From NCBI GenBank assembly GCA_030041415.1, contig JASHNX010000078.1, positions 1 through 51,336 on the forward strand: a stretch of DNA of 51,336 bases, given 5' to 3'. Within the stretch, counting starts at the first letter, position 1; every line of letters begins with the position of its first letter. The notes beneath the pieces are model-generated. The model was not told where the DNA came from and ran no database searches. It saw only the letters and a program-made list of their open reading frames with translations. Positions 13,097 through 35,329 of the stretch are shown here, piece by piece. A program made the translations under genes and the position numbers. Source of the DNA: Candidatus Sulfotelmatobacter sp. Its GTDB lineage: Bacteria; Acidobacteriota; Terriglobia; Terriglobales; Acidobacteriaceae.

Positions 13097-13102
13097 TATA
13101 CT
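13097..13102 (+). promoter_or_regulatory. Candidate -10 box (TATACT) of the nonulosonate operon
   Basis: TATACT followed by GCG. The same TATACTGCG string occurs at 27441 before the aldolase gene. The hexamer 17 bases upstream (TCACTG) is a poor -35. The leader to pseB would be about 180 bases. Confidence 0.4.
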
Positions 13103-14291: not shown

Positions 14292-14319
14292 GTGACAAGA
14301 AGTTGTTCCTAAATCGAAA

Positions 14320-18753: not shown

Positions 18754-18757
18754 GCCC

Positions 18758-20500
18758 ATGAGCGTACTTCTAGTCGATCCACTCGATGCTCCCGATTCCA
18801 GGCCTGATGAATCTTCCTGGAACCGAATCGTAGATTTGGGGCTTGCCGGAGTCGGCACATACCGGCGCTGGGCCGATCAGTTTCGTTGTCCGGTCAGCAC
18901 CCTGAACTCCCTACGAAAAGGCTTCGATGACGTGTGGCGCATACGGAATCTGTTCGCCGCAGGCCGCGGCCGCTTGCTTGACAGCCGGGGTCTCGACTGG
19001 TGGGAGATTCTGTCGATCCGGCTGACCGAGCAGCTGGAGACTGTGATCTTGCTGCAGCGCTTGGTTGAGACGGTTTCAGGCGATGAAATTTACGTCTCGC
19101 GCCCGGGTTTTCACGCGGCCGTCATGCAAAACCTGCTGCACAAACGACTGCATGTCTTTCCTTCGCGCCGCAGTCATCGCAGGTCGGGCCTTATCCACTA
19201 CATCCGCGCAGCCCGCAAACTTTCTGTTTCACAGATCGTGGACGTTCTCTGCGACAAATATGATCCGGGATACCGACTCCGTGCCCACATTCCCCACAGT
19301 CGCCGAGCGTCAGAAGCTCCCGTTGTTCTGCTCCCGACGGCGTACGTGAACGTATCGCGTACTGGAGTTGCCTATGCCGGTACGCTGCCGCAGCAAAATT
19401 TTCTGCTGGTCGCAACCCGAAGAAGCGGTTGGTTGAAAACCCTGCCGTCAAACGTTGCTGCCGCATGGCTTTCTTCCTACGCTGTTGCGCGGGATCGCAG
19501 CGCCGAAGCTGCTGAGATCGCACTCCGCTGGCGCGCGCTGTCGAGAGATCTTATTGAGTTTAAGGAATTCAAAATTCTGAACGACCTCGGATGCTTCGCA
19601 CAATTCCCTCGAGAATTGCGTCACGGGCTCGAAGTTCGCGATGCCTGGGGGAATGTCTTTGATCGCGAACCGGTGCAAGCAGTTCTCTGTGCGGATGACT
19701 CCAATCCGTATACCGGTATTCCGCTGCTCCTGGCCCGAGAACGTGGGTTGCCCAGCGTAGCTTGCCATCATGGCGCGCTTGACGGTTACTATGCGTTCAA
19801 AAGCGGATGGGCCGACGTGATTCTGGCGAAAGGCAAGATGGAGCAAGATTATCTGGTGCAGAGTTGCCGCGTCGCCGGCGAGACTGTTGAAATTGGCGCT
19901 CCCGCTACACTGATGCCGAGCCAACGAAGCCAATGGAGCCACGATTTGTCACGCTCCCAAATCCTTTTCATTTCGGAAGGCTATGAAGTGGGCGACGCGC
20001 GAGCGGAAGAATTCTATCGCGACGTTTTGCCTCCGCTGGCGGACCTGGCGCTATCGACTGGCCGGGGGCTGATCGTGAAATTGCATCCTACAGAAAGCAG
20101 AGGCGAGCGGATGAAGATGGTGGCGCGAATCCTTTCTTCGCGACAGATGAAGGTCACGCAGGTTATCGCCGGTCCGCTCACCGGGGCTTTGCTGGATGCG
20201 ACCTGGTTTGCAGTCACCGTGCTTTCGACGGTCGCCACGGAATGCGCGATGCGCGGCATTCCATGCTTTCTGTGCAAGTGGCTTGAGTATTGGTCTTATG
20301 GATACATCGATCAATTCGTTCGCTTCGGTGTGGGAATCAGCCTGAGCGACCCAAGCGAGATTAAGAAAATTCCGCAACGCCTGGAGGAATATGAAGCCGA
20401 CCCCGGTGTCTCCGCGAATCTCTGGCAGCCGGTCGAAGCGGAACGGCTGAACGAACTGTTGAATTGTTCACCTAAGGTCTTCAGCAAAGTACCGGCATGA
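18758..20500 (+). CDS. Large GT-B-like transferase, possible CMP-nonulosonate glycosyltransferase
   Basis: 580 residues with no signal peptide or obvious membrane segment. The second half looks like a GT-B domain: HHGALDGYYAFKSGWAD, LAKGKMEQDYL, EIGAP, LFISEGYEVGDARAEEFY, then IVKLHPTESRGERM (His443) and VTVLSTVATECAMRGIPCFL. HP and S-x-x-x-E elements of this type bind the nucleotide sugar in polysialyl-, Kdo- and capsule-type transferases. The N-terminal half (1-300) is not recognised. It starts four bases after the SDR, between the CMP-sugar synthases and pseG, so transfer of the CMP-activated acid onto the glycan is the natural guess. It could also be a nucleotide-sugar epimerase-like protein. 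Confidence 0.65.
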   Translation: MSVLLVDPLDAPDSRPDESSWNRIVDLGLAGVGTYRRWADQFRCPVSTLNSLRKGFDDVWRIRNLFAAGRGRLLDSRGLDWWEILSIRLTEQLETVILLQRLVETVSGDEIYVSRPGFHAAVMQNLLHKRLHVFPSRRSHRRSGLIHYIRAARKLSVSQIVDVLCDKYDPGYRLRAHIPHSRRASEAPVVLLPTAYVNVSRTGVAYAGTLPQQNFLLVATRRSGWLKTLPSNVAAAWLSSYAVARDRSAEAAEIALRWRALSRDLIEFKEFKILNDLGCFAQFPRELRHGLEVRDAWGNVFDREPVQAVLCADDSNPYTGIPLLLARERGLPSVACHHGALDGYYAFKSGWADVILAKGKMEQDYLVQSCRVAGETVEIGAPATLMPSQRSQWSHDLSRSQILFISEGYEVGDARAEEFYRDVLPPLADLALSTGRGLIVKLHPTESRGERMKMVARILSSRQMKVTQVIAGPLTGALLDATWFAVTVLSTVATECAMRGIPCFLCKWLEYWSYGYIDQFVRFGVGISLSDPSEIKKIPQRLEEYEADPGVSANLWQPVEAERLNELLNCSPKVFSKVPA

Positions 20501-20507
20501 GATCAGC

Positions 20508-21572
20508 ATGACGCGAAGCCGTTGCGCGACCCCATCACTCATGGCGAAGCAATCTAAAATGTTGATTCGAGCCGATGCCAGCGTCGCCATCGGAACGGGC
20601 CACGTGATGCGGTGTCTTGCACTGGCACAGGCTTGGCAGGATGCCGGCAGAGAAGCCACGGTCGTTGCCGCTGAAATGCCTGACTCACTCCTTATTCGGT
20701 TAGGCGAGAACAAAATTCCGGTGCTGCGCATCGGGTCTGCTTCGGGGAGTCCGGAAGACGCGGGCAGTTTTCTGGGTCACGCTTCTCAGCTCGAACCGGC
20801 CTGGATCGTGATCGACGGCGATCGCTTTGGCTCCGACTACCTGCAATCGATTCATGCTTCAGGCTCGCGTGTGCTGCTGGTCGATGATTATGCCGATCGG
20901 CCCGCTTTTTCTGCTGACGTTATCGTAAATCCGAATTTTGGTGCAGATCCTGAAAGATATCGCAACCGCGGGTATCGAGCCCCGGTGCTTACAGGGCCAC
21001 GCTACGCGTTACTACGGCGAGAGTTTCGACGTCCATTGCAACGGCAGGTGCGGGAGCGCGGCAACAGAATTCTGGTTACTCTGGGCGGAAGCGACCCTGA
21101 AGATCTGACCTCGCAAATCGCCGGAGCTCTCGCTTCGTGCTCTGACCTGAATGTCACCATCGTTGCCGGCAGCGCCTACGCGAACAAATCTCAGTTGATC
21201 GCTCAGACGGGTTCGCGAACTAAACTCCTCTTCGACTCGAACAACATGCGCGAGCTCATGATGGACGCCGACATTGCCATCACAATAGCAGGCGGAACTC
21301 TTTGGGAACTGCTCAGCCTGGGCTGCGCAGCCTTGAGTTACGCGCGCACGACCGGGGGCGCCTATCTTGTCACCTGTTTGGCACAGCGAGGCATGATAGT
21401 CGATATGGGTGAGATCTCCCGCTTCGATGCTGGAGTGATTGCTCCTGCGGTGCGGGAGATCGCAGGTTCAATCTCCGCGCGGCAACGCATGGCTTCGCAA
21501 GGCCAGGCTCTGGTGGATGGCTTGGGGGCAAGTCGCATCGTGGAGATGATTCACCAATTGAGCCGGCGCTAA
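20508..21572 (+). CDS. pseG: UDP-2,4-diacetamido-2,4,6-trideoxy-L-altropyranose hydrolase, PseG
   Basis: 354 residues. Removes UDP from the diacetamido-altrose precursor before condensation by PseI. It has a GT-B/MurG-like fold: LIRADASVAIGTGHVMRCLALAQ near the N-terminus carries the catalytic-His GxGHxMRC motif, with VLLVDDYADRPAF, RILVTLGGSDPEDLT, MDADIAITIAGGTLWELLSLG and C-terminal IVEMIHQL. Most PseG proteins begin about where the ATG at 20559 or 20541 would place the start. The upstream ATG 20508 is kept here because the other two lack ribosome sites. It follows the large transferase by 7 bases. Confidence 0.93.
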   Translation: MTRSRCATPSLMAKQSKMLIRADASVAIGTGHVMRCLALAQAWQDAGREATVVAAEMPDSLLIRLGENKIPVLRIGSASGSPEDAGSFLGHASQLEPAWIVIDGDRFGSDYLQSIHASGSRVLLVDDYADRPAFSADVIVNPNFGADPERYRNRGYRAPVLTGPRYALLRREFRRPLQRQVRERGNRILVTLGGSDPEDLTSQIAGALASCSDLNVTIVAGSAYANKSQLIAQTGSRTKLLFDSNNMRELMMDADIAITIAGGTLWELLSLGCAALSYARTTGGAYLVTCLAQRGMIVDMGEISRFDAGVIAPAVREIAGSISARQRMASQGQALVDGLGASRIVEMIHQLSRR

Positions 21573-21653
21573 ATCAGCGTTCTGATTGCCGATGCATTCG
21601 CCTCTTTGCGGATTGGCAATGTGCGAAGGTGTTGGTCGCGAACGGAGCACGCT

Positions 21654-22403
21654 TTGAGAATTGCGATTGCGCAGCCAACCTATTTGCCCTGGCTTGGATA
21701 TTTTGACCTGCTCGATCAGGTCGATCACTTTGTGCTGCTGGATAGCGTTCAATTCGAGCGGCAATCGTGGCAGCAGCGCAACCGGATCAAAACCCCACAA
21801 GGTCTCGCCTGGCTCACGGTGCCGGTCGTATTTCGCGGAAGGCTGAGCCAGACCATCGCCGAGGTGAATATTCGCGTGCCTGACTTCTGGCACGATCACC
21901 TGCGTGCCATCGAACTAAACTATCGCCGCGCTCCGTTCTTCAACCGATACTTCCATGAGCTGAGCAATAGGATTGAGTTGTTGGCGTCAAGCCTTAGCCT
22001 GCCGTGTGTCACTGTTTCTCTGCTGCGCTGGTTTGCGGAGGTCATGGGAATCACAACGCCCATGGTCCGTGCGTCGGAATTAGGCGTGCGTGGCAAGCGC
22101 ACTGAACTTCTTGCGGAGATATGCGTTTCGCTGGGGGCGTCGGCCTATCTTTCACCCTTCGGCGCATCCGAATATCTTCTAGATGAGTTGCAAATCCTTA
22201 CCGGCCGCGGGATCGAGGTGAGCTTTCACAATTATGTGCATCCCATTTACCGGCAAATGTTTCCTCCGTTCCAGCCGTATGCGTGCATTCTCGATCTGCT
22301 TTTCAATGAAGGAGAAAACGCACTGGAAATCATTCGCTCCGGGCGCCGGCAGCCGTTGCTGACGGAGGAAGTTGCTTCGCAGGTTTACCAGAAAGTGGTT
22401 TGA
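21654..22403 (+). CDS. WbqC-family protein
   Basis: 249 residues. The WbqC family (Pfam WbqC) is marked by IAIAQPTYLPWLGYFDL, DSVQFERQSWQQRNRIKT, WLTVPVVFRG, and the C-terminal LSPFGASEYL. Its members sit in O-antigen and nonulosonate loci, and their reaction is not firmly known; formyl or acyl modification has been suggested. The start is TTG 21654 because GGAG ends 6 bases before it and conservation begins exactly there; an in-frame upstream ATG at 21606 has no ribosome site. It is flanked by pseG and pseI, and its TGA overlaps the region of the pseI start. Confidence 0.86.
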   Translation: MRIAIAQPTYLPWLGYFDLLDQVDHFVLLDSVQFERQSWQQRNRIKTPQGLAWLTVPVVFRGRLSQTIAEVNIRVPDFWHDHLRAIELNYRRAPFFNRYFHELSNRIELLASSLSLPCVTVSLLRWFAEVMGITTPMVRASELGVRGKRTELLAEICVSLGASAYLSPFGASEYLLDELQILTGRGIEVSFHNYVHPIYRQMFPPFQPYACILDLLFNEGENALEIIRSGRRQPLLTEEVASQVYQKVV

Positions 22404-22405
22404 CG

Positions 22406-23485
22406 ATGACCGCACGCTTTCAAATCGGTACGCGAGACATTGGACCGGGCGCGCCCGTTTATGTGATTGCCGAACTTTCCGCTAACCATAATCAGGATTT
22501 CGAAACGGCGGTCCAAACCATTCGGGGGGCAAAGGAAGCCGGCGCGGACGCCGTGAAGCTGCAGACCTACACTCCCGACACGATCACTCTCGCGAGTGAT
22601 CGCGCGGAATTCCATATCAATGCCGGTACGCTGTGGGATGGCCGGACCCTCCACGATCTTTATCGCGAAGCATTTATGCCCTGGGAATGGCAGCCGAGGT
22701 TGAAGAACCTGGCAGAGGATCTCGGCCTCGATCTTTTTTCCAGTGCCTTCGATTCGACTGCAGTCGACTTCCTCGAACGAATGAACGTCCCGGCGCATAA
22801 ATTGGCATCGTTTGAGTTGGTCGATATCCCACTAATCCAGAAAATGGCGCGCACCGGCAAGCCTCTGATCCTTTCGACCGGCATGGCTACGCTCGGAGAG
22901 ATTGAGGAGGCCGTGAACGCTGCCCGTCAGGCAGGCACGGATCAGATCGCATTGCTGAAATGCACCAGCGCGTATCCGGCGCCACCGGAAGACATGAACC
23001 TGCGCACGATTCCGGAGATGATGCTGCATTTCGGCTTGCCTGTCGGATTATCGGATCACACCATGGGAATTGCCGCGCCCGTTGCCGCGGTGGCTCTTGG
23101 AGCATGCATCATCGAAAAGCACCTGACGCTGTCTCGCTCGCTCCCAGGTCCTGATAGTGCGTTTTCGCTGGAACCGCATGAGTTCAAGGCCATAGTCGAA
23201 GCCGTTCGCTCAGCGGAGAAGGCTCTGGGCAAGGTCGATTTCGGCGCCCACGGGAAACAGGAGTCCAGCAAGTCGTTTCGCCGCTCCCTGTTTGTAGTTG
23301 AGGATATTCAGCAAGGCGACGAATTCTGCGCAGACAACGTTCGCTCGATTCGACCGGGCTACGGCCTGCACCCGCGTTATTTACCGGAAGTGTTGGGTAA
23401 GCGTGCTGCCAAAGATATAAAGAAAGGCACGCCTTTAGACTGGAGTCTTGTCGCCAGTTACGCGCCCGACGCAATAGCGGGTTAG
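22406..23485 (+). CDS. pseI: Pseudaminic acid synthase, PseI
   Basis: 359 residues. Condenses the diacetamido-trideoxy-altrose with phosphoenolpyruvate to give pseudaminic acid. The NeuB TIM-barrel has YVIAELSANHNQDFETA, ADAVKLQTYTPDTIT, FSSAFDSTAVDFLE, ILSTGMATL, LLKCTSAYPAPPEDMNL, GLSDHTMG and IEKHLTLSR. A C-terminal SAF (antifreeze-like) domain follows, with FRRSLFVVEDIQQGD and VRSIRPGYGL. The ATG at 22406 was chosen over the overlapping TTG at 22400. The wording TYTPDTIT and DTLRD-like loops fit PseI better than sialic acid synthase, in keeping with pseB, pseC and pseG upstream. Confidence 0.94.
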   Translation: MTARFQIGTRDIGPGAPVYVIAELSANHNQDFETAVQTIRGAKEAGADAVKLQTYTPDTITLASDRAEFHINAGTLWDGRTLHDLYREAFMPWEWQPRLKNLAEDLGLDLFSSAFDSTAVDFLERMNVPAHKLASFELVDIPLIQKMARTGKPLILSTGMATLGEIEEAVNAARQAGTDQIALLKCTSAYPAPPEDMNLRTIPEMMLHFGLPVGLSDHTMGIAAPVAAVALGACIIEKHLTLSRSLPGPDSAFSLEPHEFKAIVEAVRSAEKALGKVDFGAHGKQESSKSFRRSLFVVEDIQQGDEFCADNVRSIRPGYGLHPRYLPEVLGKRAAKDIKKGTPLDWSLVASYAPDAIAG

Positions 23486-24785: not shown

Positions 24786-25988
24786 ATGTCATTGGCTTCC
24801 ACTCCAAGTTATGCAGCGGTCGAGGCCGAAGTCAGCCTTTCTGTCCCAAAGCTGGCAATCATCACCGAGATCATAGCCCCTTACCGCATCCCTGTTTTCA
24901 ATGCTCTCGCGAAGCGAAAGGAATTAGACCTGCATGTAATCTTTCTTGCCGAAAACGATCCTACCTCGCGCCAGTGGCACGTGTACAAGGAGGAGATCGA
25001 GTTTCGCTATGATGTGCTTCCTTCGTGGAGGCGGCGATTAGGGAAATACCACGTCTTACTGAATCGCGGCGTAGTGAAGACTCTGGATCGGATTAATCCC
25101 GATCTGCTTATGTGTGGGGGGTACAACTACGTTGCTTCCTGGCAGGGTGTTCTTTGGGCAAGGTTGCACAGCGTTCCGGCGCTGCTCTGGTCTGAGAGCA
25201 CAGCACACGACCACCGCTGCCGGCGTCCGCTCATCGAATTCCTCAAGGGGCGGTTCTTGCGTCTCTGTGATTATTTTGTGGCTGCCGGAACGGCATCGGC
25301 CGACTACCTGAGAGATCTTGGGATTACGCGTGATTGTATCTTCCACGCGCCCAACGCGGTCGATATCGATCTGTTTTCGACATTAGCTCAAGACTCGCAT
25401 CGGCAGCGTCAATTGCGTTCCACGCTGGATCTGCCTTCAAGATTTTTCTTATTCGCGGGACGCCTCGTGAAAGAGAAGGGACTCTTCGATTTGCTTCGAG
25501 CCTATGCGCAACTCGATGCTCAAACGCGTAGCCAAGTCGGCTTGGTACTTGCGGGTAGCGGGGCCGATCAGGGCGAATTAATGGAAGAGGCGTCAAGCAT
25601 CAAGCCCGGCACCATTCGGTTCGTCGGGTTCGTCCATCGAGACGACTTGACGAGCTTGTATGCGCTCGCCGACGCGGTTATCTTGCCAACTCACAGCGAC
25701 ACCTGGGGCCTCGTCGTAAACGAAGCGATGTCATGCGGGCGGCCAGTGATTGTTTCCAGCGTAGCAGGATGCGCTTCAGATCTGGTGAGAGACGGATGGA
25801 ACGGATACATCGTTCCCCCAAGAGATGTCTCGCAACTATCGGGAGAAATGGCTCGGCTGGCAGCCGACTCAGAGCTCCGAAGACAACTGGGGATCAGGAG
25901 CCGGCAAATCATTCAGGCATTTTCCCCAAACTCTTGGGCTGATGGGGTCGCAAATGCCGTGAGCGCTGTGCGCCGGAGGGTTGCGTGA
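24786..25988 (+). CDS. Glycosyltransferase family 4 protein
   Basis: 400 residues, GT-B fold. The acceptor domain starts LAIITEIIAPYRIPVFNAL, with CGGYNYVASW. The donor domain has FLFAGRLVKEKGLFDLL, LVLAGSGADQGEL, IRFVGFVHRDDL, and PTHSDTWGLVVNEAMSCGRP, where the first acidic residue of EX7E is Asp. The ATG at 24786 is preferred; a GTG at 24741 would add 15 residues that look non-conserved. The stop overlaps the next start (GTGA), which ties it to the downstream O-antigen ligase-family gene. Confidence 0.88.
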   Translation: MSLASTPSYAAVEAEVSLSVPKLAIITEIIAPYRIPVFNALAKRKELDLHVIFLAENDPTSRQWHVYKEEIEFRYDVLPSWRRRLGKYHVLLNRGVVKTLDRINPDLLMCGGYNYVASWQGVLWARLHSVPALLWSESTAHDHRCRRPLIEFLKGRFLRLCDYFVAAGTASADYLRDLGITRDCIFHAPNAVDIDLFSTLAQDSHRQRQLRSTLDLPSRFFLFAGRLVKEKGLFDLLRAYAQLDAQTRSQVGLVLAGSGADQGELMEEASSIKPGTIRFVGFVHRDDLTSLYALADAVILPTHSDTWGLVVNEAMSCGRPVIVSSVAGCASDLVRDGWNGYIVPPRDVSQLSGEMARLAADSELRRQLGIRSRQIIQAFSPNSWADGVANAVSAVRRRVA

Positions 25989-27412
25989 CCCGGCGACTTC
26001 AAGTGATTCTTCTGCTCACGGGACTGCTTGCATTCGGTTTACTGCTAGCCTTTGCGCAACGCGCGCCCGGCTTATTTGCCAACACGACCATTCTTGGCGG
26101 AATTCTGGCGCTGGAAATCGCCCTCGTCGGCCTAGCTCACTTCGACACCCTATTTTTTCCGCTTTTGATAGGGAGCTTTCTTTGGGCTGGAACGTTTCTT
26201 CCGTTCTACACTGCAGCTAACTTGCTTCGCTGGTTGTTTCTCGGAGTAGGCGCATTAGGAGGATTTGCTGTCTGGACGAAGAATCCCCGTTCGCCGCGCT
26301 TCTCGTCTTTCCATCTGGTAGCCCTGTTTTGCGTGGCCTCGGCGCTGGTATCCGCTGCCGTATCAGATATTCCTAGAACCGCTCTGCTTAAAGCGGCCAG
26401 TCTATTTCTTCTATTTCTTTATGCATCGGCCGGCGCTCGTTTAGCGGTTGCCGGAAGAGAAAAACAGTTTATCGCCGGTCTTGTGCTGGCCTGCGAATGG
26501 GGTGTCTATTTTGCGGCAGGGTGTTACCTCCTGCTGGATTTTGAAGTCTTCGGCAATCCTAACGCGCTTGGAGCGGCAATCGGAATTGTGGCAGTTCCGG
26601 TCTTGATCTGGGCCGCATCAACGGCTGAGACGCCTGCCTTGCGCCGGCGGCAGTTGTTTGCATTGGGTCTCTGCGCATGCCTGTTGTACCTGTCGAACTC
26701 GCGGGCATCCATTCTGGGTGCGGCTGTCGCCATTCTTCTGTTTACGATTGTCGCCCGTTACCAGCGGCTATTGTTCCAGTGGGTTTTTCTTGGTCTGTTC
26801 TTTCTCACAATCATGGCGGTAGTGAGTCCGTCTCACGTGGATGATGTGGTTTCCCTCACTGGCAGGATGCTTTATAAGGACCCGACCGCTGCCCACGAGA
26901 TTCTTGAATCGCGCCTTTCCCCCTGGGAAAAAACTCTCTCGGTCATTCAACAGCACCCCTGGTTTGGCAGCGGCTTCGGCACCAGCGAACTGGGCGCCAA
27001 TCGGCCCAACTCAACGCCTTCTTCCGTATATACAAATCCCGAATGGAATCGAGAGCATGGAAGCAGCTACCTGGCCCTCGCGGAATACCTGGGATTGCTC
27101 GGCATTCTGCCTTTCCTGGTTCTGCTGCTGATGCTGCTTCACCGGTTGATTCGAGGTTTTCGGCATGCAAAGGCAGATGCCAGTCCCGCTCATCTATGGA
27201 TTCCTCTTGCGCTGGTGGTCGTCGCCGGCTTGGTGCATGCTGGTTTTGAGGACTGGCTGTTCGCCGTAGGTTCATATCTCTGCGTGTTCTTCTGGGTTTG
27301 CGCCTTTTTGTTAATCGATTTGGTTCCGGCCGCGGAACCGGCGAAATCCGCTTTTCTGCCACGATCAGCCGCAATCCCACTCGCTGCACAGGTATCTCAT
27401 TCGCTACGTTGA
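25985..27412 (+). CDS. Second O-antigen ligase/polymerase-family membrane protein (Wzy_C)
   Basis: 475 residues with about ten to twelve membrane segments. The core shows GNPNALGAAIGI, LYLSNSRASILG (the S-R of the family) and a periplasmic loop with WEKTLSVIQQHPWFGSGFGTSELG, followed by GSSYLALAEYLGLLGILPF. It is distant from the polymerase-like protein at 7.8-9.2 kb. One of the two is likely the Wzy polymerase and the other a ligase or a second polymerase; the order cannot be settled from sequence. It starts with GTG inside the previous stop. A 106-base gap follows with a TATACT box, so transcription may restart there. Confidence 0.87.
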   Translation: MTRRLQVILLLTGLLAFGLLLAFAQRAPGLFANTTILGGILALEIALVGLAHFDTLFFPLLIGSFLWAGTFLPFYTAANLLRWLFLGVGALGGFAVWTKNPRSPRFSSFHLVALFCVASALVSAAVSDIPRTALLKAASLFLLFLYASAGARLAVAGREKQFIAGLVLACEWGVYFAAGCYLLLDFEVFGNPNALGAAIGIVAVPVLIWAASTAETPALRRRQLFALGLCACLLYLSNSRASILGAAVAILLFTIVARYQRLLFQWVFLGLFFLTIMAVVSPSHVDDVVSLTGRMLYKDPTAAHEILESRLSPWEKTLSVIQQHPWFGSGFGTSELGANRPNSTPSSVYTNPEWNREHGSSYLALAEYLGLLGILPFLVLLLMLLHRLIRGFRHAKADASPAHLWIPLALVVVAGLVHAGFEDWLFAVGSYLCVFFWVCAFLLIDLVPAAEPAKSAFLPRSAAIPLAAQVSHSLR

Positions 27413-27440
27413 CCCGAGATTTCAACTGTCTCGCCGGTAG

Positions 27441-27446
27441 TATACT
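27441..27446 (+). promoter_or_regulatory. Candidate internal -10 box (TATACT) before the aldolase cassette
   Basis: TATACT followed by GCG, as at 13097. It lies in one of the few gaps over 100 bases inside the plus-strand run, 73 bases before the aldolase ATG. No clear -35 at 16-18 bases. If active, it would give the aldolase-ligase-cyclase-carrier cassette its own promoter. Confidence 0.35.
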
Positions 27447-27518
27447 GCGCGCAGAAATCGACCAAAAATCAGCGCAGTTCACCATCGCGGTTGCGCGTGT
27501 CTGTGCCGAGAGGTTTCG

Positions 27519-29405
27519 ATGACCGATCAACTGGCGCTTCAGCTTTCAAAACGCGAGCGCATCGACATTCTGGAGTGCACGCTGCGCGATGGAAGCTACG
27601 CTGTTGATTTCAAGTTCACGGAAAACGACACCGCCGTCTTGGCCGGAGTGCTTGCCAAGCTCAGTTTCCGGTGGATCGAGGTCGGTCACGGCGTCGGCTT
27701 GGGCGCGGCAAGAGCCGGCAAGGGCGCAACCCTTTCCAGCGATGAGCGCTACATTGAGGTCGCAAAACGAGCTGCACCCGATGCGCAAATCGGATGTTTC
27801 TTTATTCCTGGGGTTGGAACTGCCGATCAGCTCAAGTCAGCGCGGGATGCCGGTCTCGATTTTGTCCGCATAGGCTGTAACGCCACTGAAATTGAAGCCG
27901 CCCATCCTTACCTCGCACAAGCAAAGAAATTGGGCCTGAAGCCATTTCTTAACTTCATGAAGACCTATGCGATCTCTGCCGAAGAGTTCGCCCGAAAAGC
28001 GGGAGACGGCGCGGCGGCGGGCGCCGATGCGATTTACTGCGTAGACTCTGCGGGGTGCATGTTTCCCGAAGACGTGCGCAGGTATTTCAGCACTGCCCGA
28101 GATCAATGCGATTGTGCTCTTGGTTTTCACGGACACAGCAATCTGCAGTTTGCGGTTGCGAACAGTGTGGAAGCCATTCGTTGCGGCGCAACTTTTATCG
28201 ATACAACCCTTTATGGTTTGGGACGAAGCGCTGGCAATGTTCCCACCGAAGTCGCGGTAGCCGTCTTCGAGCATCTCGGAATTGACACTGGCGTCGATCT
28301 TTTCGAGGTGATGGACGCCGCCGAGGAATTTATTGGCCCGCTCGTGTCGCAAATGCAACTCTACGACATGATGTCGGTGGCTATGGGTTGCAGTCAGTTT
28401 CACTCCGCTTTTCTGCCGAGAGTTGCCGCTGCTGCCCGAAAGCGCGGAGTCGAACTGCGCAGGTTGGTAGTTGCAATGGGCAAGCTTGATCCGGTCGATC
28501 TCGACGAAAACACTCTGAACCGGGTAGCTCGCAGCATGCCCAAGGCAAGCAGCAGAAAATCACGGGAAACACTCACGTCGTTTTCCGTTCCTGGAATCTC
28601 CTCGTACAGCATCAGCAGTTCGCTTTCATCCGTCCAGTCGTTAGTCGATGGGATGATCGCCACCTGCGCCAAACGCCGCGCCCGGCCAGTGCTGGAACTG
28701 GTCGCGGCGGAATCGCATTCCCCTGACCTCGTACTGGCCGACCTCATTCTCGCGGATGGACCGGTCGTCCTTGGGCGAGTCGTGTATGGCTCTTTCGAGA
28801 TGCTCGAGCAGGTGTTGTCGATGACTGCGAACCACGTGTCTCTCTTTCTTAATGACAAGGACGGAGGTCCGTGGGCAGCTCAATGGCCTGAAACTGTCGA
28901 AAATATTGTCGGCTCCGAGAGGATTCTTCCAGTGCGGTCGAAACGATTGTTTGCGTGCTATTTAGAGGAAGTTCTAACGACTGCAGCCGAGCGTTACGGC
29001 AATTTCTGCTTGTTGGTTTACGGTACGCCGCCCACTGCACTCCTGCGGCATTGCTGCGAGATTTTTGACAACGTTGCCGTGTACGGAGATCTCCCAGGGG
29101 AAGTGCCTGGGAATTGCTGGCAAATCCGGGATTTTTCCGATCGCATGCACTTCGATCTGCGAAGCGGCATTGCCTTGCTTCTGTGTCCTCCTGACAGCGC
29201 CGATGCAGGCTCAGTCGATCAACTGTTGTCGGCGAATGGCGTCGTCATTACCAGCGGACATTTCCCGCGCGTCGAGGCCGAGCTTTCTGGACGACCGGTT
29301 TTGCGGCTCGATCCGAACCATGCCTACCGCGGGCAGATGGATCGCTGGGCAGCAATTTCGAATTTGATGAAGACCGCGGAACGAAGTTCTGTGGTGGCTC
29401 AATGA
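27519..29405 (+). CDS. DRE-TIM metallolyase (4-hydroxy-2-oxovalerate aldolase-like) fused to an unassigned C-terminal domain
   Basis: 628 residues. Residues about 14-325 form an HMGL-like/DRE-TIM barrel close to 4-hydroxy-2-oxovalerate aldolases: LECTLRDGSYAVDF, IEVGHGVGLG, FIPGVGTADQL, CVDSAGCMFPEDV, GFHGHSNLQFAVANS (metal-ligand His204 and His206) and GRSAGNVPTEV. Family enzymes cleave or form C-C bonds next to a 2-keto acid, using a divalent metal. Residues about 340-628 alternate strands and helices (VLELVAAESHSPDLVLADLI, LLVYGTPPTALLRHCC, VVITSGHFPRVEAEL, VLRLDPNH) and look Rossmann-like but match nothing I know. GAGAGG is 5 bases before the ATG. The stop overlaps the acyl ligase start by 4 bases. 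A role in making a hydroxy-keto or related acid for the polymer is inference. Confidence 0.82.
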   Translation: MTDQLALQLSKRERIDILECTLRDGSYAVDFKFTENDTAVLAGVLAKLSFRWIEVGHGVGLGAARAGKGATLSSDERYIEVAKRAAPDAQIGCFFIPGVGTADQLKSARDAGLDFVRIGCNATEIEAAHPYLAQAKKLGLKPFLNFMKTYAISAEEFARKAGDGAAAGADAIYCVDSAGCMFPEDVRRYFSTARDQCDCALGFHGHSNLQFAVANSVEAIRCGATFIDTTLYGLGRSAGNVPTEVAVAVFEHLGIDTGVDLFEVMDAAEEFIGPLVSQMQLYDMMSVAMGCSQFHSAFLPRVAAAARKRGVELRRLVVAMGKLDPVDLDENTLNRVARSMPKASSRKSRETLTSFSVPGISSYSISSSLSSVQSLVDGMIATCAKRRARPVLELVAAESHSPDLVLADLILADGPVVLGRVVYGSFEMLEQVLSMTANHVSLFLNDKDGGPWAAQWPETVENIVGSERILPVRSKRLFACYLEEVLTTAAERYGNFCLLVYGTPPTALLRHCCEIFDNVAVYGDLPGEVPGNCWQIRDFSDRMHFDLRSGIALLLCPPDSADAGSVDQLLSANGVVITSGHFPRVEAELSGRPVLRLDPNHAYRGQMDRWAAISNLMKTAERSSVVAQ

Positions 29406-31051
29406 CGATTCGCGAAACCATCATCGACCCCATTCAGCAGCGCAGCGGCAAGATATTTCTTGTGGATGCCGCCACTGGCGCTTCGATGACCTATGGGGAA
29501 TTCCACCACGCGGCATGCGCTCTGGGTGCCGAACTCTCGCGCCGAGGACTAAGCAAAGGCGATCGAGTAGGCGTGATGATTCCCAATTGCTGCGAACTAG
29601 CTATTCTCTATTTCGCATGCATTTATCTCGGGGCGGTGATTGTTCCTGTCAATCCTTCGCTTAGCGAGACCGATGTCCGGTTCATCCTGGCGAACTGCAA
29701 GCCGAAACTGCTGGTGGTGAGCCAATCGAGTGCTATTTTCGCTCGCGGCTTGCACGCGAAAGTGATCCTGTTGGCGACCTCACAAGAGGAGGGCAGAATC
29801 GAACACGCGACCGGCTGCGACCTCATTCGAATCGACGGTCTCGAACCGCGCTCGCAATTTGTGCCCCTTGAAACGGCAACCTCGAATGACTTCGTCGCGA
29901 TCATGTACACGTCGGGCACTTCGGCAAAACCCAAAGGCCTAGCACACAAACTGGGAAGCCTGCTGCGCAACGCCCGAGCTTTCGGCGATTCTCGTGGCGT
30001 CGATGAAGGTTCGCGTTTTTATCTGACGCTTTCCATGACGTACATGGGAGGCTTCTACAACTTGCTCATTCTGCCTTTTCTGTGCGGAGCGAGCGTGGTG
30101 GTTGACCACGTTTTCGATGCCCGGTCCAGCTTGAATTTCTGGGAAAAAGCAAAAAAACATAGCGTCAACATGCTCTGGATGGCTCCCACGGTTTTGTCGA
30201 TTCTTCTGCGCATGGATCGCGGGCACACGGGTGAGGAGTTCTGCCGTCGCTCCGTGCGCCACACTTTCGTAGGATTTGCTCCTCTACCTGCAAAAGTGAA
30301 ATCGGAATTTGAGGCTCGCTATGGAGTTCGGCTGATCGAAAATTACGGTCTGTCAGAAACCCTGTTTGTCACGGCCCGCTCGCGAAATTTAGTCGGCGGC
30401 CAAGGCTACGTGGGCGAAGCTTTACCAGGCGTGAGGCTTCGCATAGCGGCATCCGATCCGCGAAACGGCAACCAGCGATTGAGCCGCAATGAGCTGCACG
30501 CCGGAACCGAAGGCGAGATCGAGGTTCTGACTCCAGATCTGATGGCGGCCTATCTCGACGCCGATGGTCAGCTGTTGCCGGTCGATGCCTCGAAGTGGTT
30601 CCCAACTGGCGATGTCGGCCGCATCGAAAACGATGGCAGCCTGTTCGTTACTGGCAGGAAGAAAGACCTCATCATTCGCGGCGGCGTCAACATCAGCCCC
30701 GCCGCGATCGAAGAATCGCTGATGCAGGTCGAGGGTGTGGCGGAAGTGGCGGTGGTCAGCATTCCCCATGAGCTTTATGGCGAAGACATCGTTGCCGTGC
30801 TGAAGTTGAATTCAGGATTCGAACTCGAATCGATGCTCGATTTGCTGGTCGCCCGCAGCAAACGCACTCTCGCACAACACCAGCAACCGGCTCGCTACAT
30901 TGCGATCGATGAATTTCCCAGAACTGCGAACGGAAAAATCCAGAAATCGCGCATTCGAGAATTGCTGTTGGAGAAACTGCAGCTAGGCACAATCTCAGCC
31001 GCTCACAAGACGCCGACAGAGATCGCAGAACCTGCAGGTGCATCCGGCTAA
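29402..31051 (+). CDS. AMP-dependent acyl ligase (ANL superfamily)
   Basis: 549 residues. Activates a carboxylic acid as the acyl-adenylate and passes it to CoA or to a carrier-protein thiol. The P-loop YTSGTSAKPKG is at residues 169-179, with ENYGLSETLF, TGDVGRIENDGSLFVTGRKKDLIIRGG (A7-A8) and the C-terminal catalytic Lys512 in RTANGKIQK. Because a carrier protein lies two genes downstream in the same coupled group, loading of that carrier is more likely than plain acyl-CoA synthesis; this is inference. It shares ATGA with the aldolase stop and TAATG with the next gene. Substrate unknown, presumably the aldolase product or a relative. Confidence 0.93.
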   Translation: MTIRETIIDPIQQRSGKIFLVDAATGASMTYGEFHHAACALGAELSRRGLSKGDRVGVMIPNCCELAILYFACIYLGAVIVPVNPSLSETDVRFILANCKPKLLVVSQSSAIFARGLHAKVILLATSQEEGRIEHATGCDLIRIDGLEPRSQFVPLETATSNDFVAIMYTSGTSAKPKGLAHKLGSLLRNARAFGDSRGVDEGSRFYLTLSMTYMGGFYNLLILPFLCGASVVVDHVFDARSSLNFWEKAKKHSVNMLWMAPTVLSILLRMDRGHTGEEFCRRSVRHTFVGFAPLPAKVKSEFEARYGVRLIENYGLSETLFVTARSRNLVGGQGYVGEALPGVRLRIAASDPRNGNQRLSRNELHAGTEGEIEVLTPDLMAAYLDADGQLLPVDASKWFPTGDVGRIENDGSLFVTGRKKDLIIRGGVNISPAAIEESLMQVEGVAEVAVVSIPHELYGEDIVAVLKLNSGFELESMLDLLVARSKRTLAQHQQPARYIAIDEFPRTANGKIQKSRIRELLLEKLQLGTISAAHKTPTEIAEPAGASG

Positions 31052-31752
31052 TGCGCGAAACGGCGAAACAATCTGGTTCCGAAAAGACCCGCATGAGAAT
31101 CATCGACCTGTCGCTGCCCATCGAAGAGGGCATGATGACCTTCCCCACACATTGGCATCCGGTGGTTGAGGTCACAATTCTAGGGCGGCACGGAATCGAG
31201 GGCCGGGAAACGCGCAAGGTTGTCTTTGGAACGCACGCCGGCACGCACGCAGATGCGGCGCGACATTTCGTTCCGAATGGTGGAACCATCGACGAAATTC
31301 CTCTGGATGTGCTGATCGGTCCGGCCACCATTGCTGATTTCACTGGCTGCCACGCTCTTCAGGAGATCGATGTTGCCGATCTCAAGCAAAAATTGAAGGG
31401 GAAAGTCCCCGCCCGAATGATTCTGCGCACCGGCTGGTCCGAGCATTTTGGCGAGATGAAGTTCTACAACGAATATCCGTTCCTCTCTGAGAAGGCGGCA
31501 CAATGGCTGGTCGATCAGGGCGTGCGGCTCATTGCTATGGATACGCCTTCACCCGACAATCCAGCCCACTCGCGCGGCACCACAAAAGATTCGCCCAATC
31601 ACAAAGTGCTTCTCGGAGCTGGGGTGGTGCTGGTCGAATACGTCGCGAATCTGAAAGCGATTTCCTCATTGCAGGTGGAATTGATTGTCTTGCCCTTAAA
31701 ACTAAAAGGAGCCGATGGTTCTCCGGTCCGGTGCGTGGCAATCGAAAAATGA
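31051..31752 (+). CDS. Cyclase-family metal hydrolase (kynurenine formamidase-like)
   Basis: 233 residues, Pfam Cyclase fold. The metal-binding motif HxGTHxDxxxH is intact: His62, His66, Asp68, His72 in GTHAGTHADAARHF. Also present are RMILRTGW, LIAMDTPSPDNP and VLVEYVANL. Family members hydrolyse arylformamides or act in polyketide-like ring formation and lactone chemistry. In this cassette a hydrolase, dehydratase or lactonase acting on the aldolase or ligase product is plausible but unproven. It starts at the TAATG junction with the ligase; an internal ATG at 31093 begins nearer the conserved region. The stop overlaps the carrier protein start (ATGA). Confidence 0.88.
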   Translation: MRETAKQSGSEKTRMRIIDLSLPIEEGMMTFPTHWHPVVEVTILGRHGIEGRETRKVVFGTHAGTHADAARHFVPNGGTIDEIPLDVLIGPATIADFTGCHALQEIDVADLKQKLKGKVPARMILRTGWSEHFGEMKFYNEYPFLSEKAAQWLVDQGVRLIAMDTPSPDNPAHSRGTTKDSPNHKVLLGAGVVLVEYVANLKAISSLQVELIVLPLKLKGADGSPVRCVAIEK

Positions 31753-32081
31753 AAAACGGAACCGGTCAAGAAACTAAACAGGTGAACACCGTGGATGAAT
31801 CCAGATCGCGCGCAGAAGAATGGCTCACCTTGTGGTTTATCGAGCGCGCGAAAATCGATCGGGAAGCGGAGGCGAGAGCGGTGAGCGCGATTCGCGGCAC
31901 CGATTACTTTGACGCCGGGTGGCTGACTTCGATGGAGGTGGTGGAATTCGTTACCGAGATCGAACAAAGGTTCGCCATGCAGTTCACTGACCGCGATCTG
32001 CAGGATTCTCGCTTCGTCACCATAAGCGGCCTCGCCGAGCTGATTTGCGCGCGCTCGGCTCAGATGAACGAGGTTTGTTGA
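31749..32081 (+). CDS. Acyl carrier protein-like protein
   Basis: 110 residues, acidic, helical. The phosphopantetheine site is in DYFDAGWLTSMEVVEFVTEI, with Ser61 as the attachment residue; the usual Asp of the DSL motif is Thr60. The F-D-x-G-W-L lead-in resembles carrier proteins of small acyl-modification clusters rather than the fatty-acid ACP. An N-terminal tail of about 20 residues is non-conserved. The ATG at 31749 shares ATGA with the cyclase-family stop; this short gene is otherwise hidden in a longer open frame starting at 31503. It is the fourth gene of a continuous coupled group and probably carries the acid activated by the ligase. Confidence 0.85.
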   Translation: MKNGTGQETKQVNTVDESRSRAEEWLTLWFIERAKIDREAEARAVSAIRGTDYFDAGWLTSMEVVEFVTEIEQRFAMQFTDRDLQDSRFVTISGLAELICARSAQMNEVC

Positions 32082-33298
32082 CTGTGCCGACGGCGGAAGC
32101 GATACATCCCGGTTCGGTGTTTGCTGAGCCGTCAAAACTTTCCACCCTGCACCTCCTGACGCTCACTCCCTTTTATCCTTCGGAAACTTCCGAAGTGAAC
32201 GGGTGCTTCGTAGCCGAAAGCCTGGCAGAGTTAAGCTCCCGTGGAGTTCTTTCATCGGTGATCGGGGTCGATAGCATTTATCACTCTCGCCGAACCTCCA
32301 GCACTCTTTATCCCGCCGAGTGGGTTCGCTGCCCGCAGCTTCCCGGCAATTTCGGCCTCGCCGGTGCGGGAAGATTTCTGGCCGCAACTCTTCTCCCAAG
32401 AATCAGCCGGCTTCATCGGCATTCGCCGATTCACTTGATTCATGCCCATTCCGCACTGCCATGCGGACACGCCGCGGCAATCATTTCGCAGCGCCTGAAT
32501 GTTCCCTTCGTGGTTACCATTCACGGTCTCGATGTCTTCAACAGTTGTTTCGAGAACGGTCTGGCAGCCAAATGGCGCAGGAAAGCTTCGATCCGCGTTT
32601 ATCGGGAGGCGCGCAAGTTGATCTGCATCAGCCGGAAGGTGAAAGACCTGGTGGCAGAAACTTTGGGACCAACCGTTGATGCAGAACTTCTCTACAATGG
32701 CACCGACACTTCGTTGTTCGTACCACTGAACCAAGACGAAGAGAAACGCGCAGCGAATCCGACGATCCTGGTCGTGGGAAACCTATTAGCCGGTAAGGGA
32801 CAGGAGTTGGTCATACGCGCCGCCGCTCAATTGCAAAATTCGTATCCACATCTGCGATGCGACTTCATCGGGGAAGGAGCGGATCGGAATCGCTTCGCAT
32901 CTCTGGCCCTCACTCTTGGCATCGGCGATCGAATTCGCTTTTTGGGGCGCGAAAGCCGCTCCGAAGTCGCAGAAGCGATGCGGCAATGCACAGTGTTTGC
33001 TCTGCCCAGCCGCTACGAAGGCTTGGGATGCGTCTACCTCGAAGCCATGGCATGCGGAAGACCAGTCGTGGCATGTGAGGGGCAGGGAATCGGCGAAATT
33101 ATTCGTCATGGCGTCAACGGATGGTTGATTCCCGTCGACGGCCTGAATGACCTGACGCAGGGTCTGCAAGTTTTGCTCGGAGATGCCGAACTTCGCGCCC
33201 GAATCGGGCAAACTGCCCGCGAAACCATCGTCAGCAAGTTCAGCATGTCTCACCACGCCGAAAGTCTGCTGAAGATCTATCGGGACGCCGCGCAATGA
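32078..33298 (+). CDS. Glycosyltransferase family 4 protein
   Basis: 406 residues, GT-B fold. LLTLTPFYPSETSEVNGCFVAE at the N-terminus, VVTIHGLDVF, and KLICISRKVKDLV. The donor domain has ILVVGNLLAGKGQELVI, FIGEGADRNRF, and PSRYEGLGCVYLEAMACGRP with a complete EX7E. The start is uncertain: TTG 32078 gives a TTGA overlap with the carrier protein and has GAGG 4 bases upstream; GTG 32084 is an alternative. It links the carrier-protein cassette to the glycan genes on one transcript. The ATGA at its end overlaps the GNAT start. Confidence 0.88.
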   Translation: MTVPTAEAIHPGSVFAEPSKLSTLHLLTLTPFYPSETSEVNGCFVAESLAELSSRGVLSSVIGVDSIYHSRRTSSTLYPAEWVRCPQLPGNFGLAGAGRFLAATLLPRISRLHRHSPIHLIHAHSALPCGHAAAIISQRLNVPFVVTIHGLDVFNSCFENGLAAKWRRKASIRVYREARKLICISRKVKDLVAETLGPTVDAELLYNGTDTSLFVPLNQDEEKRAANPTILVVGNLLAGKGQELVIRAAAQLQNSYPHLRCDFIGEGADRNRFASLALTLGIGDRIRFLGRESRSEVAEAMRQCTVFALPSRYEGLGCVYLEAMACGRPVVACEGQGIGEIIRHGVNGWLIPVDGLNDLTQGLQVLLGDAELRARIGQTARETIVSKFSMSHHAESLLKIYRDAAQ

Positions 33299-34386
33299 CT
33301 TCTCCTCAATTGATCCCTCAGAAGTGCGTCCCAGCCGCCGAACTCGTTCCGATCGCAGGAGCTGAGATTACGGATGTTGCCCGCTTTATCGCAGCCCAGT
33401 CCGGTCGCAGCAAAACCGAAGTGGAAGCTCGTCTGGCCTGGTTTCTGCTCGAAAATCCGGCGCGAACACCAGAGCAGCCGATTGGCTTCGGTTTGCGCGC
33501 GTCCGGCGAGCTGGTCGGCTGCATCCTCTGCAGTCCACAAGCCTTTCACCATCGGAACCAGAAGATCATTTTCATGGGATCCAGTTCCTTTTATGTCGGT
33601 GAGTGTTATCGCGGACAGGGCGGCCGCATTTTTCTACAATATTCTCGCCTCGCAAATCGCTGGCCTTTATTCGGAACCTCTGCGAACCCGGAAGCCGCAG
33701 CGTTGTGGAAGGCAGCCGGAGCTCAACCGATTCCTTTCGCTGATGGAGAGCTGTTTGGTACCCTCAACTGGCCGCCGGTAGCCGAGGAATTCGCGCATCG
33801 TCAAACATCCAATCGCTTCATTTCCCGTCTGGCGAAAAGCTCAGGCTCGAAATTTGCTGCCCTCATGAATCCGCTAAAAATCGACTGCCACAGCCTGGCA
33901 ACGCTTCAACCGCTCAAATCTGCCGAGGAGGCGAGCGACCTGATTTCTGGAACTCCGGCGGAAGAACTGACGGCCTTGCGCGATCGGGCCTACATTCACT
34001 GGCGGTATTTCTCAGGAGCGGACTCGAGCGTTGAAGTATTCGTGCTTCATAGCGAACATTCCAGGCAAAGCGTTTTCCTGACTGTCAACAAGCGCACGCG
34101 CGGCTATCGCAGCCAAATCAGGACACTCAACGTGCTCGACGTCTACCCGGAGATTTCTGCCGAAGAATGGCTGAAGGTTCTCGGAGCGTTAATCGCCCGC
34201 TATTCGGCCTCGGTCGATGCAATTGTGCTGCGGAATCAGAATTTCGAGAAGCGAAAAATATTCTGCGAGCGAGGTTTTCATTGGCGTGCCTTCGATGCCG
34301 CAACTGGCTGGCTTCTCGACCGAACAACACAATTGCCAGGGCCTGAAAGCTATTTCGTACCGGCCGACGGCGATGGCCTCATCTAG
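33295..34386 (+). CDS. Two-part GNAT-family acyltransferase
   Basis: 363 residues, about twice a single GNAT domain. The first half (about 20-150) has GELVGCILCSPQ, FMGSSSFYVGECYRGQGGRIFL (acyl-CoA/pantetheine loop R-G-Q-G-G) and FGTSANPEAAALWKAAGA. The second half (about 200-345) has a further GNAT-like segment, including SVDAIVLRNQNFEKRKIFCERGF. It is expected to N-acylate an amino sugar, using acyl-CoA or, in this context, an acyl carrier protein. No canonical PseH is in the window, so this is the best candidate for acylating the 4-amino group made by PseC, or for adding the special acyl group of the upstream cassette. It overlaps the previous stop (ATGA). Confidence 0.78.
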   Translation: MTSPQLIPQKCVPAAELVPIAGAEITDVARFIAAQSGRSKTEVEARLAWFLLENPARTPEQPIGFGLRASGELVGCILCSPQAFHHRNQKIIFMGSSSFYVGECYRGQGGRIFLQYSRLANRWPLFGTSANPEAAALWKAAGAQPIPFADGELFGTLNWPPVAEEFAHRQTSNRFISRLAKSSGSKFAALMNPLKIDCHSLATLQPLKSAEEASDLISGTPAEELTALRDRAYIHWRYFSGADSSVEVFVLHSEHSRQSVFLTVNKRTRGYRSQIRTLNVLDVYPEISAEEWLKVLGALIARYSASVDAIVLRNQNFEKRKIFCERGFHWRAFDAATGWLLDRTTQLPGPESYFVPADGDGLI

Positions 34387-34441
34387 ACTCTCAGATCAGG
34401 GAAGTCACCTTTGTCGCTGTGCAAACGTCGGAGCTGGTGCA

Positions 34442-35329
34442 ATGAATCTCCGAAGCCAACTTCGAGCGCTCCTCATTCGCGCGGCCGTTCTAGTTCGAGC
34501 CGATGAGGCGGCCCTGCGCATTCAGTGCCGCCGCGCTCGGGGAGTTGTCGTGGCGATTCACGAAACCCCAGCGGTGTTCGAGGGTCAATTCCGCGCCCAA
34601 CTTGAATGGGCATCGCGGCATTTCGCGATTTCCAGCTTGAACACCTTCATTCAGCGGTTGCGAGCCCCAGGAGGGGATCCTGAATCGAAGCCTCCAGTTC
34701 TCTTTACTTTTGATGACGGCAGAGAGAGCAACTGTCGAGTCGCGGCACCCCTGCTCGAATCTTTTGGAGGACGGGGCGTGTTTTTCATTGTGCCGGCTTT
34801 CGCCGAGTGCTCTCCCTCGAAGGCTTTTGATTTTTATCGTATGAGGATCGATCCCCATGCCGCGCCGAGCGACGAGAATGGCAAAGACTGGAAGCCGATG
34901 ACTTCCGCGCAAATCGCAGAACTGGCGGCTCGAGGACACGCAATCGGCAACCACACGCTAACCCACTCACGTTTGGCAGGACTTCCGCCTGAAGAGTTGG
35001 AACACGAGATCGCCGATAGCGCCCGCAAGCTGGAGTCGTGGACGAACCAACCCGTCGAATCCTTCGCCTGGACGTTCGGATGGGATTCAGTCGATGCGAG
35101 CGCCCTCCGAGTCATTCAGCGGCATCATAAATTTTGTTTTGCCCCCTGCGCGGGAACGATCGATTTCGATCGCGGATTGCCGACTATATTTTGGCGGCGG
35201 GAGATCGAAGTGAATTACCCGCCGGCAGAATATAGGTTTCTCTATTCGGGTCTTGCCGATCCCTGGTGGAGCACGCGTCGCTGGCATCTTCGTAAAATGC
35301 TGCAACTGTCCAATGCAAATCAAACGTAG
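34442..35329 (+). CDS. Polysaccharide deacetylase (NodB-type, CE4)
   Basis: 295 residues. NodB homology domain with the first acidic motif FTFDDGRESN (Asp91, Asp92) and the metal-ligand motif GNHTLTHSRL (His171, His175), followed by EIADSARKLESW and SFAWTFGWD. CE4 enzymes remove N- or O-acetyl groups from sugars with a divalent metal. There is no clear signal peptide; the first 15 residues are only mildly hydrophobic, so it may work on lipid-linked precursors at the inner membrane. GGAG lies 8 bases before the ATG at 34442; longer upstream frames lack support. Confidence 0.9.
   Translation: MNLRSQLRALLIRAAVLVRADEAALRIQCRRARGVVVAIHETPAVFEGQFRAQLEWASRHFAISSLNTFIQRLRAPGGDPESKPPVLFTFDDGRESNCRVAAPLLESFGGRGVFFIVPAFAECSPSKAFDFYRMRIDPHAAPSDENGKDWKPMTSAQIAELAARGHAIGNHTLTHSRLAGLPPEELEHEIADSARKLESWTNQPVESFAWTFGWDSVDASALRVIQRHHKFCFAPCAGTIDFDRGLPTIFWRREIEVNYPPAEYRFLYSGLADPWWSTRRWHLRKMLQLSNANQT

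Follow-up and report, generated by a model that had tools for sequence, protein, structure and literature searches.

The window analysed here is a contig of 51,336 nucleotides (C171; JASHNX010000078.1) of the soil acidobacterium Candidatus Sulfotelmatobacter sp., taken from a 4.8 Mb assembly in 350 contigs. At 27519–32081 on its plus strand, four genes run in the order aldolase-like enzyme (ALD), AMP-forming acyl ligase (LIG), cyclase-family metal hydrolase (CYC) and phosphopantetheine carrier (ACP), and this cassette sits in a large polysaccharide locus with glycan genes on both sides, on the same strand (table 1). We propose, with a probability of roughly 0.6, that the four genes form one biosynthetic unit, specific to its lineage, whose role is to provide a small acyl group, in activated form, for a polysaccharide of the cell surface. 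The original prediction, made from the DNA alone, was that the cassette builds an acid, loads it on the carrier and passes it to a sugar; our analysis supports it in part.

How closely are the four genes joined? The open reading frames (ORFs) are present as predicted and overlap at every junction, by 4, 1 and 4 bases. The ACP frame ends at 32081; its probable start is the ATG at 31749, which overlaps the CYC stop. ALD is separated from the gene upstream of it by about 107 bases, with no overlap, and a scan for promoter consensus from 27200 to 32300, this gap included, gave no match. The arrangement is not a chance one. Of nine loci carrying the cassette, all have ATGA at the ALD stop, and in eight it is in frame with the LIG ORF (the exception is locus L021); the CYC/ACP overlap is lost in some. 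The families first assigned to the four products are likewise borne out by Pfam matches above cut-off: PF00682 for ALD, PF00501 and PF13193 for LIG, PF04199 for CYC and PF00550 for ACP.

Table 1. Features of the window, with the four cassette genes first.
Feature	Position	Strand	Length	Families and remarks
ALD, DRE-TIM (HMGL-like) aldolase-like	27519..29405	+	628 amino acids	PF00682, NF006049
LIG, AMP-forming acyl ligase (ANL superfamily)	29402..31051	+	549 amino acids	PF00501, PF13193
CYC, cyclase-family metal hydrolase (kynurenine-formamidase/isatin-hydrolase family)	31051..31752	+	233 amino acids	PF04199
ACP, discrete phosphopantetheine carrier	31749..32081	+		PF00550
Pseudaminic-acid (Pse) block	13290..23485	+		PseB 13290, PseC 14320, PseF-like 16534 and 17270, PseG 20508, WbqC 21606, PseI 22400
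Wzy/O-antigen-ligase-like membrane protein	25985..27412	+		PF04932
Family 4 glycosyltransferase (GT4) directly after ACP	32078..33298	+		PF00534; start uncertain, ORF opens at 32045
GNAT-like protein, candidate acyltransferase	33295..34386	+		sub-threshold GNAT matches; RGxGG motif by eye
Polysaccharide deacetylase	34217..35329	+		PF01522; syntenic with the GNAT-like gene

Conservation and distribution of the cassette

If the four genes form a unit, do they also travel as one? We searched 45 genomes of the genus with ALD and CYC; the presence of LIG and ACP was read at the cassette loci. ALD was found at an E-value of 1e-60 or better in 15 genomes, eleven at 69–100% identity and four at 36–37%. 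CYC, at 1e-100 or better, marks the same eleven (G000, G008, G014, G023, G024, G026, G028, G030, G036, G453 and G454), and weak paralogues of it occur in two further genomes (4e-24 and 7e-21). Cassette-type ALD and CYC are therefore found together in 11 of the 45 genomes, with no orphan of either, and 34 are without them. The conserved co-occurrence that had been offered as a check of the original prediction is thus seen in 11 of the 11 genomes with either gene, and glycan genes surround the loci that were read. Nine of the eleven keep the order ALD–LIG–CYC–ACP on a single contig; the other two, G008 and G028, have contig ends within the cassette.

Two of the nine complete loci contain an apparently interrupted gene, LIG in G454 (L025, 8892–10516) and ALD in G036 (L024, about 10001–11865). 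These are either assembly errors or decay.

Purifying selection on all four genes is clear. Against L018, the nearest relative with the four, the ratio of non-synonymous to synonymous substitution rates (dN/dS) is 0.11 for ALD, 0.18 for LIG, 0.06 for CYC and 0.24 for ACP; for LIG this was the one comparison made. Against the other loci, synonymous sites approach saturation. A scan of genome contigs with the single ALD sequence, using close-relative patterns, returned nine loci at 72–84% ALD identity, all of this group and all in metagenome-assembled genomes of Candidatus Sulfotelmatobacter or Acidobacteriaceae.

Samples of the phylum and class, in which the best few candidates per genome were scored and to which any absence outside the genus is limited, gave the C-terminal part of ALD in 2 of 299 genomes (the window's own and G011) and CYC at 1e-30 in 8 of 396 genomes, of which the window's own scores 2e-142 and the best of the other seven 4e-35. 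No ALD relative was found in viral contigs. Among 72,556 plasmid records, ALD matched 276, none over more than 80% of the query, and the 25 listed cover 52–56% of it, the barrel part; CYC matched 73, all below 60% identity; the cassette DNA matched three, in short pieces within LIG; ACP matched none.

Families, motifs and the aldolase pocket

What reaction might ALD catalyse? Its match to the HMGL-like family PF00682 has an E-value of 2.8e-30. It passes the cut-off of the NCBIfam subfamily NF006049 (294.4 bits; cut-off 229) and fails that of the equivalog TIGR03217, 4-hydroxy-2-oxovalerate aldolase (266.1 bits; cut-off 286). The communication domain PF07836 gives a weak, sub-threshold match (19.2 bits; cut-off 27), and the nearest sequences in the PDB are 4-hydroxy-2-oxovalerate aldolases (E 5e-53). 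The barrel occupies approximately residues 12–340 and is fused to about 270 C-terminal residues of no recognised family. An AlphaFold2 (AF2) model of the barrel compares with 4lrs at a VIA Z of 32.4 and a root-mean-square deviation of 3.4 over 279 residues.

On the donor and metal side, alignment places Arg17, Asp18, His200 and His202 of DmpG (1nvm), which we take to be its metal and pyruvate residues, at Arg23, Asp24, His204 and His206 of ALD. On the acceptor side, His20, Leu87, Leu89 and Tyr290 of BphI (equated with DmpG His21, Leu88, Leu90 and Tyr291, the BphI numbering being assumed one lower) are replaced by Tyr27, Phe94, Ile96 and His295; the exchange of His and Tyr is reciprocal. All these residues are invariant in 13 of 13 aligned sequences, namely the window's, eight cassette relatives and four of the 37% group (the contig-cut G028 and the interrupted G036 were omitted). 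The available text of PMC3962088 describes changes at Leu87 and Leu89 of BphI that shift its aldehyde preference, and changes at Tyr290 that relax the configuration at C4. We read the ALD pocket, from its sequence, as one whose donor side has been kept and whose acceptor side has been rebuilt. A histidine of the His20 type is presumably the catalytic acid/base. Tyr at this position, taken alone, is not unique to the ALD group, for the putative aldolase 3dxi shares it.

ALD resembles DmpG and BphI in its barrel fold, its LRDG motif and its metal ligands. It differs from them in the replaced acceptor residues and the swapped His and Tyr, in the extra C-terminal residues, and in its lack of a dehydrogenase partner, no acylating aldehyde dehydrogenase being found among its scanned neighbours. 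The C-terminal part gave no Pfam match at an E-value of 1 or better and no PDB sequence match at 10 or better, and a Foldseek search with its model returned nothing at 0.001 or better. In a VIA comparison of residues 117–243 of this model, shikimate dehydrogenases, methyltransferases and medium-chain reductases tie at a Z of about 9. With low confidence, then, the second half may be Rossmann-like; a dehydrogenase role was among the possibilities considered.

Might ALD instead join a 2-oxo acid to an acyl group bound to a carrier or to CoA, in a Claisen-type condensation like that of the isopropylmalate synthases, so that loading of ACP would precede the C–C step? These enzymes are of the same superfamily, and ALD gives weaker matches to homocitrate and isopropylmalate synthases. 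However, the aldolases are by far the best NCBIfam matches (E 1e-87 versus 1e-22), and the faint trace of PF07836, an aldolase domain, points in the same direction. We regard a Claisen-type ALD as highly improbable.

The four more distant relatives of ALD offer a comparison. These sister proteins, of about 713 amino acids and 36–37% identical to ALD, occur in G016, G011, G018 and G021 (loci L027–L030), all four of which lacked cassette-type ALD and CYC in the 45-genome searches. By eye, they contain a stretch resembling a dinucleotide-binding turn in the part related to the ALD C-terminus. The sister gene adjoins a DegT aminotransferase in all four genomes, and an ATP-grasp ligase comes after it in each of the three loci long enough to show one (L027, L028 and L029; L030 ends first). 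In L027, L029 and L030, but not in L028, the aminotransferase has a Gfo/Idh gene before it, and in L029 a hexapeptide transferase stands ahead of that gene in turn. The strongest comparative argument for ALD as the maker of an acid to go on sugars is thus that one type of ALD is found beside two different acid-activating enzymes, both in sugar-gene settings. The sister loci are possibly a second acyl-to-amino-sugar system.

The partners of ALD have intact motifs. LIG matches PF00501 (212.5 bits, E 1.1e-62) and PF13193 (48.2 bits, E 2.1e-12), and a P-loop-like TSGTSAKPKG and a C-terminal PRTANGKIQK can be read from its sequence. CYC matches PF04199 at 110.2 bits (cut-off 23.1; E 1.2e-31), keeps the metal motif HxGTHxD in nine of nine aligned sequences, and as a profile finds kynurenine formamidases in the PDB (E 4e-21). 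It shares this family and motif with kynurenine formamidase and isatin hydrolase, but fails the arylformamidase equivalog TIGR03035 (102.3 bits; cut-off 223.05), and its context is not that of tryptophan breakdown.

ACP matches PF00550 at 26.8 bits (cut-off 20.8; E 6e-6). Its attachment motif is DYF-x-AGWLTSMEVVEF, and the serine (residue 61) is invariant in nine of nine aligned sequences. Its matches in NCBIfam (PRK07081, AmcB, DltC and one more) are all below cut-off. Like DltC, the D-alanyl carrier protein and the best PDB match of its profile, ACP is a stand-alone carrier; the DltA/DltC system differs in that ACP falls short of the DltC model NF003464 (20.3 bits; cut-off 68), LIG resembles acyl-CoA ligases, and neither DltB nor DltD is present among the scanned neighbours. 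The host genome holds eight PF00550 matches, that of the cassette, four on contig C147 (one of them in a 117-amino-acid ORF) and one each on C246, C2 and C273. The match on C273 is a separate stand-alone ACP-like ORF of 91 amino acids, which may be the general acyl carrier protein. Because of this second stand-alone ORF and the match to DltC, the cassette ACP is probably distinct from the carrier of fatty-acid synthesis. The four domains on C147 lie within about 11 kb (G000, 3348–14049), probably a polyketide synthase or non-ribosomal peptide synthetase cluster.

The nearest solved relatives of LIG are FadD13 and malonyl-CoA synthetase, and the nearest families of ALD are catabolic aldolases. 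Both would suit a reading in which the genes are unrelated, LIG being an ordinary acyl-CoA ligase, ACP part of fatty-acid or polyketide synthesis, and ALD and CYC catabolic. Yet gene order is conserved, every one of the 11 genomes with either ALD or CYC has both, another stand-alone ACP-like ORF lies elsewhere in the genome, and the acylating aldehyde dehydrogenase is missing among the scanned neighbours. We consider it very unlikely that the four are unrelated.

The glycan locus and the proposed pathway

The glycan genes said to flank the cassette are indeed there. Between PseI/NeuB, the last gene of the Pse block, and ALD lie two GT4 genes and the Wzy-like gene; beyond ACP follow GT4, the GNAT-like gene, the polysaccharide deacetylase, GT4, GT2 and AsnB, all on the plus strand. 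Across the nine contiguous loci, GT4 is found upstream of the cassette in all and was called downstream in seven, the contig ending first in L020 and the gene not being called by ORF picking in L021. The sugar genes upstream vary among strains; the cassette and the genes 3' of it are constant.

Which sugar might receive the acyl group? In the window strain the Pse block is a possible amino-sugar acceptor pathway. PseB, PseC, PseG and PseI exceed the curated cut-offs of NCBIfam, the two tandem PseF-like genes fall below theirs, and PseH was not recognised among the genes scanned. The block also contains a 580-amino-acid gene (18758–20500) with no Pfam match at 0.001 (DUF6716 at 0.097) and no NCBIfam match at 1e-20. 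In three other cassette loci (L022, L024 and L026), neither Pse block nor NeuB was seen in the approximately 10 kb fetched upstream, the rest of those genomes being unsearched. It follows that a sugar other than pseudaminic acid may be the acceptor, unless these strains carry NeuB elsewhere. All three upstream regions have flippase-like genes; that of L026 adds a sulfotransferase, a methyltransferase and a sulfatase-like gene, and that of L024 a FemAB/GNAT-like gene.

The same loci bear on the idea that ALD builds part of the sugar itself, from pyruvate and a sugar aldehyde as in ulosonic acids, with LIG and ACP acting on something else. Nonulosonate genes are present in the locus, and related class II aldolases use pyruvate, according to the available text of PMC3962088. 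On the other hand, the NeuB/PseI-type synthase that makes such a bond is already in the window, ALD is kept where no NeuB was seen in the fetched flank, and ALD always co-occurs with CYC. That ALD is a builder of sugars seems to us distinctly improbable.

Alternatively, the cassette could make a free small molecule, a specialised metabolite whose genes merely travel within the polysaccharide locus. An aldolase, a ligase, a hydrolase and a carrier would fit a small natural-product pathway equally well, and AmcB, of cispentacin biosynthesis, is among the weak matches of ACP. However, Pfam and NCBIfam scans of the window neighbours returned glycan families and no natural-product cluster, and GT4 genes accompany the cassette from locus to locus, as described above. 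A free product is in our view unlikely.

How, then, might the cassette supply an acyl group to a polysaccharide? Its reactions, its product, the loading of the carrier and the acceptor sugar are what we infer from enzyme families and gene context. ALD would couple an aldehyde other than acetaldehyde with pyruvate or a closely similar 2-oxo acid, giving a 4-hydroxy-2-oxo acid that its C-terminal domain would perhaps alter further. Acids of this kind tend to form gamma-lactones; CYC would open a cyclic or amide form, such as a gamma-lactone, to the free acid. LIG would adenylate the acid and load it on the phosphopantetheine arm of ACP, and an acyltransferase, possibly the GNAT-like protein at 33295, would transfer the acyl group to a repeat-unit sugar, at an amino or a hydroxyl group. 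One possible product of ALD, and here we speculate, is a C4 acid, whose reduction would yield 2,4-dihydroxybutyrate, the acid called tetronate in Vibrio cholerae. More tentatively, and with less than even odds, this may be a new decoration route, in which an ALD of a new subfamily, marked by its swapped His/Tyr pair and its fused C-terminal domain, makes the hydroxy-oxo acid from pyruvate and one particular aldehyde, CYC readies it, and a private LIG and ACP deliver it to a sugar; paired with an ATP-grasp ligase in the sister strains, the same type of ALD would serve amino sugars generally as a source of acyl groups.

Several observations weigh against the supply of an acyl group to a surface polysaccharide. 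The nearest solved relatives of LIG are acyl-CoA synthetases, and what ties LIG to ACP is linkage alone. We know of no enzyme activity for the ALD type; its His/Tyr swap and its C-terminal domain could signal a different reaction, and the AF2 models are of low confidence (mean pLDDT 60 for ALD and 53 for the C-terminal part). Among the samples covered, cassette-type ALD was seen in this genus only (11 of 45), and at 1e-60 the phylum sample gave ALD in 1 of 396 genomes, the window's own. The GNAT assignment of the gene at 33295 is weak, a search of the PDB with its profile hit no GNAT chain, and two of the 45 genomes have the gene but no cassette: G003 and, with a more divergent homologue, G035. 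Finally, the acid made by the cassette could have a use elsewhere than in polysaccharide.

Known systems and neighbouring genes

Is a module of this kind without precedent? A small hydroxy acid is likewise attached as an acyl group, through the tetronate module of V. cholerae O1 (VC0248–VC0252), to the amino groups of the perosamine in a surface polymer. We take that module to include an AMP ligase and a carrier, its other genes presumably being an iron alcohol dehydrogenase, a LuxE-like and an acetyltransferase-like gene, with no aldolase and no PF04199 hydrolase; the two modules are set apart here by their descriptions, not by sequence. The cassette has the same pairing of acyl ligase and carrier inside a surface-glycan locus. 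The available text of PMC3441752 describes the tetronate gene group and an effect of wbeL mutation on the O antigen. That of PMC7874193 describes, in group II flagellar glycosylation islands of Aeromonas, Pse genes, an acyl carrier protein, an AMP-dependent synthetase and glycosyltransferases. These islands, also compared by description, add a 3-oxoacyl-ACP reductase, luxC and luxE, and that text mentions no aldolase and names no cyclase-family gene. With these two cases, the original statement that none of the four is a standard polysaccharide gene proves too strong.

Carrier-based acyl modules in glycan loci are already known. What is new among the systems covered is an aldolase with an altered pocket and an extra domain, together with a cyclase-family hydrolase, in one unit with ligase and carrier. 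Literature searches pairing 4-hydroxy-2-oxovalerate aldolase with O-antigen, HMGL-like proteins with capsule, and the cassette genes in mixed terms made no such cassette apparent in the portions of the sources available. A search for the genus name with exopolysaccharide found nothing, and to our knowledge the surface glycans of soil Acidobacteriota have been little studied. Should our proposal hold, bacterial polysaccharides would have one more biosynthetic route to acyl groups other than acetyl, and the altered ALD pocket presents a new C–C bond-forming enzyme to characterise. The four-gene set is short and testable, the natural comparison being between the 11 genomes with ALD and CYC and the 34 without the cassette.

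What role might be played by the GNAT-like gene? The window protein scores 12.7 bits against the GNAT domain (cut-off 20.7), and sub-threshold matches at an E-value of 0.5 or better appear in three of eight relatives (best 0.013). The gene is found in 11 of the 45 genus genomes, nine of the eleven with the cassette plus G003 and G035 (E 9e-101); in the other two cassette genomes, G024 and G454, it was not found, the contigs there stopping a short way past the cassette. In all eight genomes that have CYC and the GNAT-like gene on one contig, about 2.2 kb separates their starts. In the phylum and class sample it occurs in 1 of 297, the window's own. The gene is linked to the cassette and not exclusive to it, and the notion that it is dedicated to the cassette is weakened by the cassette-free copies in G003 and G035.

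In G003 (L045, 13289–19528) the gene lies in a reduced locus with the deacetylase, GT4, a shortened AsnB and a shortened glycosyltransferase, without the cassette or the upstream sugar genes. In G035 (L046, 8344–11622), which has no orthologue of ALD or CYC, the pair of GNAT-like gene and polysaccharide deacetylase adjoins an Acyl_transf_3 protein.

Further along the window, 37596–46074 encodes in series AsnB, a toroid-fold protein, a formyltransferase, a heparinase II/III-like protein and a 742-amino-acid fusion of a zinc alcohol dehydrogenase with a Gfo/Idh/MocA oxidoreductase. Past this fusion come GT4, a minus-strand Wza gene and a PF00953 gene.

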